A stretch of 64,000 nucleotides of DNA. Source: Gammaproteobacteria bacterium (GTDB taxonomy: Bacteria; Pseudomonadota; Gammaproteobacteria; Steroidobacterales; Woeseiaceae). The stretch covers positions 1 to 64,000 of the forward strand of contig JAOTZC010000001.1 in NCBI GenBank assembly GCA_029861535.1, in the 5' to 3' direction. The position numbers and the translations under genes were made by a program. Positions 22,753 to 28,560 of the stretch are shown piece after piece; the first letter of the stretch is position 1, and each line of letters opens with the position of its first letter. The notes beneath the pieces are model-generated. The model made no database searches and was not told the DNA's origin. It saw nothing but the letters and a program-made list of their open reading frames with translations.

Positions 22753-22951
22753 TTTGACAGTTTATGTTGAATTGGCTGCCCTGTATGGGCGGAAACGCAC
22801 AAGCGGTCGAGACCGCGCAGGATGACCACGCGCGAGTTCCACAAGATGTGCTGCTGCGCTTAGTCAACCTTAGCTTTTTCAGTGCTTTAAGCTTTGCTCT
22901 TTGCTTGTTGCTTTATATGCAGCGCAACAAATCGTCGGTTTTGTTTACAAA

Positions 22952-22971
22952 TGGGCGCAAAATTTCGCCCA
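22952..22971. promoter_or_regulatory. dyad, candidate activator site for the sigma-54 promoter
   Basis: TGGGCG (22952-22957) and CGCCCA (22966-22971) form a perfect inverted repeat around an AT-rich 8-base spacer. The centre lies roughly 90 bases upstream of the predicted sigma-54 start, near the usual reach of enhancer-binding proteins. No activator can be named from this. A 76-codon open frame that crosses the site has no ribosome site and is probably not a gene. Confidence 0.35.
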
Positions 22972-23024
22972 GTTGGTCCGTACTTTTGCGCTAAATGCTT
23001 GAAAAGCCGCCCGTTACAGCAAGG

Positions 23025-23041
23025 TTGGCACAGGATTTGCT
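23025..23041 (+). promoter_or_regulatory. sigma-54 (RpoN) promoter
   Basis: TTGGCACAGGATTTGCT matches the sigma-54 consensus TGGCACG-N4-TTGCW at every position but one (A for the last G of the first block). The GG (-24) and GC (-12) dinucleotides have exactly ten bases between them. Transcription would start near 23051. No protein-coding frame follows before the terminator at 23225-23257. Confidence 0.85.
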
Positions 23042-23050
23042 TTTAATACT

Positions 23051-23257
23051 CTGCCCAAGCGAAGTGTAACTGCAGTTAGTAGTAAAAACGGAACAGTTGA
23101 GGATTTAGACGCCAGAAGAACAATAACTACAAAAACAACAAGATCCAGATCCAATAATAATAATTTCTCTGTATCCGGCTACTGAATTCGCAGTTACCTC
23201 TTTTGATAAAAAGAAAGAGAAGTTAGCCCCGCCGCTCAACCGGCGGGGCTTTTTATT
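23051..23257 (+). ncRNA. putative sigma-54-dependent small RNA, A-rich, about 205 nt
   Basis: The stretch between the sigma-54 promoter and a strong intrinsic terminator contains no ATG and no usable GTG or TTG frame. Three features suggest a functional RNA. First, GTAACTGC at 23066-23073 is complementary to GCAGTTAC at 23190-23197, which would close a ~116-nt loop. Second, the loop is purine- and A-rich with AACAATAAC (23120), AAAAACAACAAG (23132) and AATAATAATAAT (23154), resembling the AAnAAnAA sites bound by Hfq/Crc. Third, a GC-rich hairpin with a U tract closes it. Size, sigma factor and motifs recall Pseudomonas CrcZ/CrcY, but cbrAB is not adjacent and I see no sequence identity. Start and family are inference. 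Confidence 0.6.
23225..23257 (+). terminator. intrinsic terminator of the small RNA
   Basis: AGCCCCGCCG (23225-23234) pairs perfectly with CGGCGGGGCT (23241-23250) around a six-base loop, followed by TTTTATT. This is a textbook Rho-independent terminator on the plus strand. There is no coding gene immediately upstream for it to serve: the amidohydrolase fusion ended 470 bases earlier. Confidence 0.92.
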
Positions 23258-23350: not shown

Positions 23351-24166
23351 ATGAAAAGTGTAATTACTCTAGCGCTCATCGCGATGTCGGTGATCGCGTG
23401 CAACAGACAGGCGCCACCCGCGGTTGAGGGGACGACGGACGACGACGCCGAAACACCTGCTATCGCCTCACCTGAAACCTCGATCTATGCGGACGCAGTG
23501 GCCAATACGTCGCGCCTGGAGGGCGACTACGCCCGAGATGCCAGCCGCAAACCCGTTGAGGTTCTCGAGTTCATTGGCATCGCCCCGGGCCAGACCGTGC
23601 TCGATTTGTTCTCAGGCGGAGGCTACTACAGCGAGCTGCTGTCACGTGTCGTCGGCAGCGATGGCCAAGTGTATGCCCACTCCAATGAGGCTTATCTGAG
23701 CTTTGCCGGTGACGAATTTATCGATCGCCACGCGAATGGTCGACTACCGAATGTAAAAGTGCTCATGGCCGAAAATAACGAGCTTGAGCTCGACGAGGGC
23801 TCTCTGGACGCGATCATGATGGTGCTCGCTTATCACGATGTCTATTACGCCGAGCCACAGAATGGCTGGCCGAAGATCGATGTTGACCATCTGCTCGCCG
23901 AGCTCTACCAGGGTCTAAAGCCGGACGGCATTGTTGGCATTGTCGATCACTATGCCGAGGCCGGTGCGCCGAGAGAGACCGGTGGCACATTGCATCGCAT
24001 CGATCGTAACATCGTCATTGCAGACTTCGAATCAGCCGGTTTTGAGCTAGCGGCAAAGAGTGATGTACTGAGAAACATGAACGACGACTACTCGAAGAAC
24101 GTGTTTGAGCCGGACCTGCGCGGCAAGACCGATCGCTTCGTACTCAAATTCAGGAAACCGAAGTAG
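23351..24166 (+). CDS. methyltransferase-fold lipoprotein (COG4798-like)
   Basis: 271 residues. A lipoprotein signal (VITLALIAMSVIAC) leads to an Asp/Thr-rich linker and then a class I SAM methyltransferase fold. Motif I is VLDLFSGGGYYSELLSRVVG (~80-99), and later blocks are LDAIMMVLAYHDVYY and LKPDGIVGIVDHYAE. The glycine loop is intact, so SAM binding is plausible, yet the protein should sit outside the cytoplasm where SAM is not known to be available. The family (predicted methyltransferase COG4798) has no proven substrate. It starts about 95 bases after the small-RNA terminator and is followed without a gap by the amidase. Confidence 0.88.
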   Translation: MKSVITLALIAMSVIACNRQAPPAVEGTTDDDAETPAIASPETSIYADAVANTSRLEGDYARDASRKPVEVLEFIGIAPGQTVLDLFSGGGYYSELLSRVVGSDGQVYAHSNEAYLSFAGDEFIDRHANGRLPNVKVLMAENNELELDEGSLDAIMMVLAYHDVYYAEPQNGWPKIDVDHLLAELYQGLKPDGIVGIVDHYAEAGAPRETGGTLHRIDRNIVIADFESAGFELAAKSDVLRNMNDDYSKNVFEPDLRGKTDRFVLKFRKPK

Positions 24167-28198: not shown

Positions 28199-28313
28199 TT
28201 CCGTTGTCTCAGCGGGCGTGACCGCTGAACTATGGCGGTAGAGGGCGTCAGACACAAGACAGGCAATCATCGTCATCCGCTGCCTTGACAGCCAACGATA
28301 CGCTGCCTAATGT

Positions 28314-28560
28314 GTGCCGCTCATCAGGTGAACCCGGATTGGCAAATCCGAGTGAACGGGAAGCCGGCGACACATCGGCGATAGATTTTCGCATATGTCA
28401 TTCCGGCGCTGCCCCCGCAACGGTGATCGAGTAAAGTCCTGGCCCCCGCGCAAAACATCGCCCGGAGCCACTGCGAACCATCAGGTTCGCGGGAAGGCGC
28501 CAGGATAGGCTTAGCCGCTCGTAAGCCCGGAGACCGGCCCGATGTGCACGCGAGCGGCGC
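28314..28560 (+). promoter_or_regulatory. cobalamin (AdoCbl) riboswitch upstream of btuB
   Basis: All hallmark blocks are present in order: AACGGGAAGCCGG (28355), GCTGCCCCCGCAACGG (28408), GAGCCACTGCGAA (28465, the B12 box), CGGGAAGGCGCCAGG (28489) and AGCCCGGAGACCGGCC (28524). The outer P1 stem pairs GTGCCGCTC (28314-28322) with GAGCGGCGC (28552-28560). Downstream, the hairpin GCGTGC-GGGTG-GCACGC (28638-28654) sits right before the btuB ribosome site and may be part of the output switch. Binding of adenosylcobalamin would shut off btuB, and probably the following adenosyltransferase. Confidence 0.94.

Follow-up and report, generated by a model that had tools for sequence, protein, structure and literature searches.

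As a sequence-only reading of the first 64,000 nt of contig JAOTZC010000001.1 from an uncultured Woeseiaceae gammaproteobacterium (this whole stretch is called the window in the following) had proposed a free-standing, sigma-54-dependent small RNA (sRNA) of the CrcZ/CrcY kind, we were interested whether such an RNA is encoded there, what would switch it on and how it would act. Comparison with related genomes supported a free-standing noncoding RNA of sigma-54 type, and judging from its conservation and fold, a conserved regulatory RNA at this locus is almost certainly real. The sRNA of about 205 nt (23051-23257, plus strand, as its parts and control sites below) is probably a PrsR/sigma-54-controlled, Hfq-using member of the PEP-CTERM regulon, which would pair with mRNAs via its 5' end.

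The near-perfect sigma-54 promoter of the earlier reading was recovered by checking the letters at 23025-23041 (TTGGCACAGGATTTGCT), and its -24/-12 pattern TGGYAYN5TTGC was conserved in 83 of 83 relatives. The pattern is also rare: allowing at most one mismatch, two matches were obtained in the 2.57-Mb genome, this locus and one 5' of a gene read by eye as pilin-type, versus one match in the reversed control. Judging from the -12 element, the transcript would start near 23051. The strong terminator described before was confirmed as an intrinsic terminator at 23225-23255, with a stem at 23225-23250 followed by a T run, and 6 of its 10 pairs showed changes on both sides. When 40 relatives were searched, strong DNA matches (E 2.4e-72 to 7.6e-42) were found in 18 of the 24 other genomes of the genus. 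The conserved stretch reached from just 5' of the promoter to the terminator, and the flanks aligned poorly except for one box and an element resembling a site for integration host factor (IHF). A covariance model (R1) built from 19 sequences (alignment A2) detected the RNA in 85 of 107 family genomes, in 38 of the 45 good ones (at least 90% complete, at most 5% contaminated) and in 9 of 12 genera, as a single copy per genome with the exception of G105, which carried one additional short partial match. G062 was scored as negative, yet it carries the first half of the RNA at the end of a contig (L309). In G040, the model missed a diverged copy (L190), which retains box, promoter, TGCCCAAGCGA and terminator, with the rest of the RNA mostly lost. 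A search with a 20-nt core in 84,980 species genomes named 72 stretches, from records named Woeseiaceae, Woeseia, Gammaproteobacteria, Proteobacteria or Chromatiales metagenome-assembled genomes. As had been noted, cbrAB is not adjacent: the locus does not lie 3' of these genes, and its neighbours are an amidohydrolase gene and a set of methyltransferase, amidase and ABC genes. Among the matches listed, the amidohydrolase gene was found upstream wherever the contig reaches, whereas the nearest downstream gene varied between methyltransferase, amidase, a p25752 homologue and ABC protein, which fits an independent unit.

The transcript (about 23051-23257) folded at -59.2 kcal/mol compared to a shuffle mean of -38.4 kcal/mol (z = -5.4, 200 shuffles). 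A pairing between segments at 23066 and 23190 had been seen before, and both GTAACTGC (23066-23073) and GCAGTTAC (23190-23197) were present and conserved as the arms of stem P1, with 97.4% of the cells paired and double changes in 4 of 8 pairs; the paired region is, however, longer than the 8-bp stem noted. It continues with P2 (23076-23083 with 23178-23185; 82.9% of cells paired, 8 of 8 pairs with double changes), P2b (23089-23096 with 23169-23177; 82.6%, 6 of 7 pairs) and P4 (23101-23106 with 23147-23152; 98.6%), of whose six pairs two never vary, three change on one side and one shows a double change. A further hairpin, P3 (CTCTTT...AAAGAG, 23198-23219), has an arm of 5-7 bp in 77 of 83 relatives, with variants including CTCTCT/AGAGAG exchanges, and is unpaired in the other six. 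The covariation search over homologous intergenic regions that had been suggested for this locus supported the fold: 13 of 39 pairs had changed on both sides in the 19 sequences, and none of 500 shuffles reached the observed values, while in an alignment of 84 rows (A3; 83 distinct), fitted to the model and with kinship not removed, changes on both sides were seen in 25 of 39 pairs and 181 cells, exceeding all 500 shuffles. Given this fitting and the retained kinship, a slide control matters, in which 92.2% of the cells paired as modelled versus 27.5-47.0% when slid. P2 and P2b were broken in about 17% of the cells, and a 122-nt copy in G118 (L094) is devoid of the loop and the P2 3' arms, reflecting either a natural deletion or an assembly error. 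In front of P1, the 5' end with GCCCAAGCGAAG (23051-23065) is unpaired and near-invariant and is the candidate seed; GCCCAAGCGAA within it was invariant across the 19 sequences, and TGCCCAAGCGAAG of the 5' end was exact in 74 and GATTTAGACGCCAGAA in 73 of the 84 rows.

Several lines argue for a noncoding RNA. The gap from the 5' block to the GGATT block was 0, 1 and 2 modulo 3 in 29, 30 and 23 of 82 relatives, respectively, and such a random gap points to an RNA rather than a coding sequence. The earlier description of about 205 bases without start codon or usable frame was right insofar as the window transcript has no ATG and no conserved frame, the finding that would have spoken against an RNA, appeared in these 82 relatives, but GTG and TTG triplets are present; in 31 of 84 relatives an ATG occurs somewhere in the RNA. 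No Rfam family reached its gathering threshold within the sRNA stretch, and the 12 matches at E up to 5 included no CrcZ, GlmY/GlmZ or Qrr family; the CrcZ family is present in Rfam. The best weak match was anti-hemB (E 2.7e-4, 27.6 bits versus a gathering threshold of 49.5), covering both 3' hairpins.

The AAnAAnAA-like tracts noted in the loop were present and turned out to follow a conserved phase. The loop at 23116-23142 reads AAG AAC AAT AAC TAC AAA AAC AAC AAG, and in 65 loops of 28 nt among 83 sequences, A was found at triplet positions 1, 2 and 3 in 91.5%, 97.9% and 22.1%, with C, T, A and G, that is purines and pyrimidines mixed, used at the third. According to the available text of PMC6422490, the distal face of Hfq recognizes an A-R-N pattern with six triplets per hexamer, and retention of the first two A with a variable third position is the pattern expected for this face, making the loop a predicted Hfq site. 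A second A-rich tract, AATAATAATAAT, follows at 23153-23164, and most of the 19 aligned sequences have a similar one. Hfq itself is encoded in the genome of the window (G000:C11:26620-26799, above cut-off) and was found in 88 of 107 family genomes, 87 of them above cut-off.

Conservation also led to a putative activator site, a PrsR-type enhancer box at 22933-22949 (CGTCGGTTTTGTTTACA), which is spanned by a 76-aa open reading frame (ORF; 22764-22994) without Pfam match. Its strict pattern [CT]GTC[GA]N6TTTAC[AG] occurred in 75 of 83 relatives, the remaining eight having near-variants, and lay 73-75 nt from the promoter in 73 of the strict cases (86 and 87 nt in the others). As YGTCGNNNTNNTTTACA gave one match in the genome versus two in the reversed control, which is not above chance, it is the conservation that serves as evidence for the box. 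It agrees with PEP-CTERM 'motif 1' of the literature, to which PrsR is predicted to bind, the comparison being with the text description of a 17-nt motif ending in TTTACA, which is located 62.8 +/- 10.6 nt (32-92) 5' of a sigma-54 site before proteobacterial PEP-CTERM genes and for which Haft and colleagues inferred PrsR as the binder (PMC1569441, as far as its available text goes). RpoN dependence of one PEP-CTERM gene was later shown (PMC9850573, available text). Within the family, the composite of box and promoter was detected in 81 of 107 genomes, with two matches in the reversed control, both in G120. Of 27 listed composite sites that do not belong to the RNA, 20 were examined: 14 precede genes with PEP-CTERM-like tails as judged by eye, four precede ORFs running off the stretch and two genes without tail. 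All four tails scanned with TIGR02595 were above cut-off, and three of three passed PF07589. Between box and promoter, TAAATGCTTGAA (22992-23003) is the reverse complement of WWTCAAN4TTR, which we take to be the IHF consensus; the IHF-like pattern [CT]AAN4TTGA[AT] was found in 55 of 83 box-promoter spacers of the RNA (shuffled expectation 0.65) and in 5 of 13 spacers of PEP-CTERM genes (expectation 0.1). The dyad TGGGCG/CGCCCA at 22952-22971, proposed before as the activator site, is present but not conserved, any 6-bp dyad occurring in 3 of 79 relatives (shuffled expectation 1.15), and was rejected in this role. Two PrsR are encoded in the genome, both above the TIGR02915 cut-off. Across 107 genomes, 70 had PrsR and the RNA, 15 the RNA only, 3 PrsR only and 19 neither (Fisher p 3e-9), and among the 45 good genomes these numbers were 32, 6, 2 and 5 (p 0.006), both p values being uncorrected for kinship. 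All nine small genomes of genus g25 were devoid of the RNA, PrsR and Hfq, a joint absence that may reflect only genome reduction.

The reading of the locus as a pairing sRNA of the PEP-CTERM regulon may be pictured as follows. Phosphorylated PrsR bound at 22933-22949 would switch on transcription of the free-standing RNA by sigma-54 RNA polymerase, with IHF probably bending the DNA between box and promoter, and the RNA would be a noncoding member of the PEP-CTERM/exopolysaccharide regulon. Its long hairpin would present the AAN triplets to the distal face of Hfq and the U-tailed terminator could occupy the proximal face, an arrangement known from class II sRNAs such as MgrR, leaving the exposed, near-invariant 5' end to pair with mRNAs, which may be repressed or activated when the matrix programme is on. 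Pairing via the 5' end is favoured, as few parts of the RNA are conserved as well and the diverged copy of G040 retains this end.

Several observations weigh against this explanation. At E <= 1e-150, PrsR was not found in 15 of the 85 RNA-bearing genomes, six of them among the 45 good ones and one (G022) 100% complete, and it was found without a model match to the RNA in G005 (98%), G008 (64%) and G040 (98%), the last of which retains its diverged RNA. Nine of the 85 genomes with the RNA yielded no Hfq, some distant members have no clean AAN loop (L083, L091, L093), and the loop is partly or wholly lost in L019, L099 and L094. The spacer is 75 nt here versus 60-62 nt at 11 of 13 PEP-CTERM sites of the family (74 nt at the remaining two), no second site with box and promoter was found in the genome of the window, which is 76% complete, and neither PrsK nor PrsT turned up in the 8 ORFs scanned out of 11 (200 aa or longer) that surround one prsR within 16.5 kb. 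In addition, another activator, similar to GlrR, is encoded beside prsR. Finally, the seed was not particularly complementary to the 13 PEP-CTERM leaders tested (p 0.1-0.97) or to the two prsR leaders, and the hfq leader, cut at an assumed position, gave p 0.04 among 16 seed tests; direct targeting of the PEP-CTERM leaders by the 5' end was dismissed, as no signal was obtained in these 13.

The same control site also occurs outside the family. At RNA-type spacing, the composite occurred in 114 of 396 genomes of the order, with no control match among the matches listed. All 39 sites outside the family were read and assigned to classes by eye: 15 head A-rich RNAs with a terminator (12 in family f15, two of which are nearly identical, one in f8 and two in f6), 12 head PEP-CTERM-like genes, 8 are ambiguous and 4 head noncoding stretches with terminator and little AAN in f5 and f10. 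The latter (L288, L289, L306 and L307) contain no long AAN runs, and the terminator of L288 was recognized by eye after the script had missed it. The f15 RNAs share GCCAGAAG and the AAN-rich layout with the window RNA, and the covariance model matched 7 of 11 tested (E 5.6e-6 to 3.7) and missed four. Homology to the window RNA is likely for some f15 RNAs, a claim limited to some because A-rich composition may inflate the scores. At class level, 22 of 369 genomes had a site, with two control matches, and the 19 sites read outside the order comprised 6 PEP-CTERM-like ones, 11 others and 2 possible short, terminator-ended RNAs behind box and promoter in genomes of other orders (L315, L316). Two weak class-level model matches (L074, L075) were discarded, as box and promoter are both missing from the stretches retrieved and the similarity is mostly confined to the terminator.

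That the RNAs of other families under this promoter resemble each other more in A-rich triplet tracts than in sequence would also fit the main rival, pure Hfq titration, in which a CrcZ-like decoy mainly draws Hfq, with or without a Crc-like partner, off A-rich mRNA leaders and pairing is secondary. This is possible though somewhat unlikely: no pairing target was found in 16 leaders, but one nine-triplet loop and a short tract offer room for one or two hexamers versus multiple sites in CrcZ, and the conserved 5' end that survives in G040 is not of AAN type. It is less probable still that the same sRNA is activated not by PrsR but by the GlrR-like response regulator. GlrR activates GlmY/GlmZ in enterobacteria, the GlrR-like gene lies beside prsR in this genome and in G120 (best model GlrR with 634.5 and 633.2 bits, the cut-off of 763 not being reached), and PrsR was not detected in some of the genomes that carry the RNA. 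However, the box has the form published for PEP-CTERM genes and is located 5' of such genes in the family, and it is unlike the GlrR sites, which are TGTC-N10-GACA. In L034, L035, L332 and L334, prsR adjoins a GlrR-like response-regulator gene on the opposite strand, followed by a kinase gene in L332 and L334; a functional link between both systems is possible. That the RNA serves the downstream gene as a 5' leader or attenuator, instead of being independent, is very improbable; the gene at 23351 is on the same strand and the phenylalanine-leader model of Rfam matched weakly (28.8 bits versus a gathering threshold of 55), but the strong terminator is followed by about 95 nt before the next start, and the downstream gene differs between relatives. 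Least credible is an mRNA for a small basic protein, which was considered seriously because the AAN loop resembles wobble variation and the 5' block would encode (L/M)PKRSV (NTG CCC AAG CGA...), a frame without stop over 30 or more codons in 43 of 82 relatives, but which was rejected by the random frame, the first codon being CTG in 51 of 82, the AAN frame having no ATG, GTG or TTG start in 57 of 81 and its third positions mixing purines and pyrimidines.

Among known systems, CrcZ, CrcY and CrcX of the Pseudomonadaceae resemble the pairing sRNA proposed here in their sigma-54 promoter, noncoding nature and ARN-type A-rich motifs for the distal face of Hfq, but differ in their position beside cbrAB, activator box, Rfam identity and the covarying hairpin, and CrcZ has 426 nt (PMC6422490, available text), about twice the length found here. 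The suggested resemblance to CrcZ/CrcY holds for the promoter and the AAN motifs, while the link to CbrB and CrcZ is unsupported, with CbrB and Crc not having been searched for. Class II Hfq sRNAs, to which ChiX also belongs, share the unpaired ARN motif, terminator U tail and free-standing gene and differ in promoter type; the motif of MgrR is an imperfect (ARN)5 (PMC6239178, available text) versus nine triplets in a hairpin loop here, eight AAN and one TAN. With PEP-CTERM genes of the PrsK/PrsR/sigma-54 regulon, the locus has in common the 17-nt box ending in TTTACA, the -24/-12 promoter and a spacer within the published 32-92 nt, whereas its product is an RNA and its spacer is longer than at most PEP-CTERM sites of the family. 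GlmY/GlmZ and Qrr are sigma-54-driven sRNAs with an NtrC-type activator, as proposed here, but have Rfam families that found no match in the window RNA and a different activator box, and we know of no AAN loop in them. Among the matches listed from the open-licence literature, and as far as the available text goes, no description of an sRNA was found for the PEP-CTERM/PrsR regulon or the Woeseiaceae. Elsewhere in the window, a cobalamin riboswitch (28309-28556; 85.4 bits, gathering threshold 31.5) is located just past an ABC-transporter/cysQ-like gene pair, and a minus-strand 16S rRNA gene, truncated by the window edge, is represented by its end at positions 1-108.

PEP-CTERM/exosortase systems occur in many environmental bacteria, and to our knowledge little is known about control by PrsK/PrsR beyond surface proteins. 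The control site shared with the genes of PEP-CTERM proteins, which are secreted matrix proteins, suggests that matrix building is coupled to RNA-based gene control, and the RNA can now be searched for with the covariance model. More tentatively, PrsR and sigma-54 may drive fast-evolving, AAN-rich, Hfq-engaging RNAs throughout the order (f1, f15, f8 and f6), so that the matrix state, marked by PEP-CTERM and exosortase, would reset global post-transcriptional control as an independently evolved counterpart of CbrB-CrcZ. With a conserved RNA under the PEP-CTERM switch, that regulon would gain a post-transcriptional arm, and a second, independent lineage would have placed an A-rich RNA of Hfq type under the control of sigma-54.
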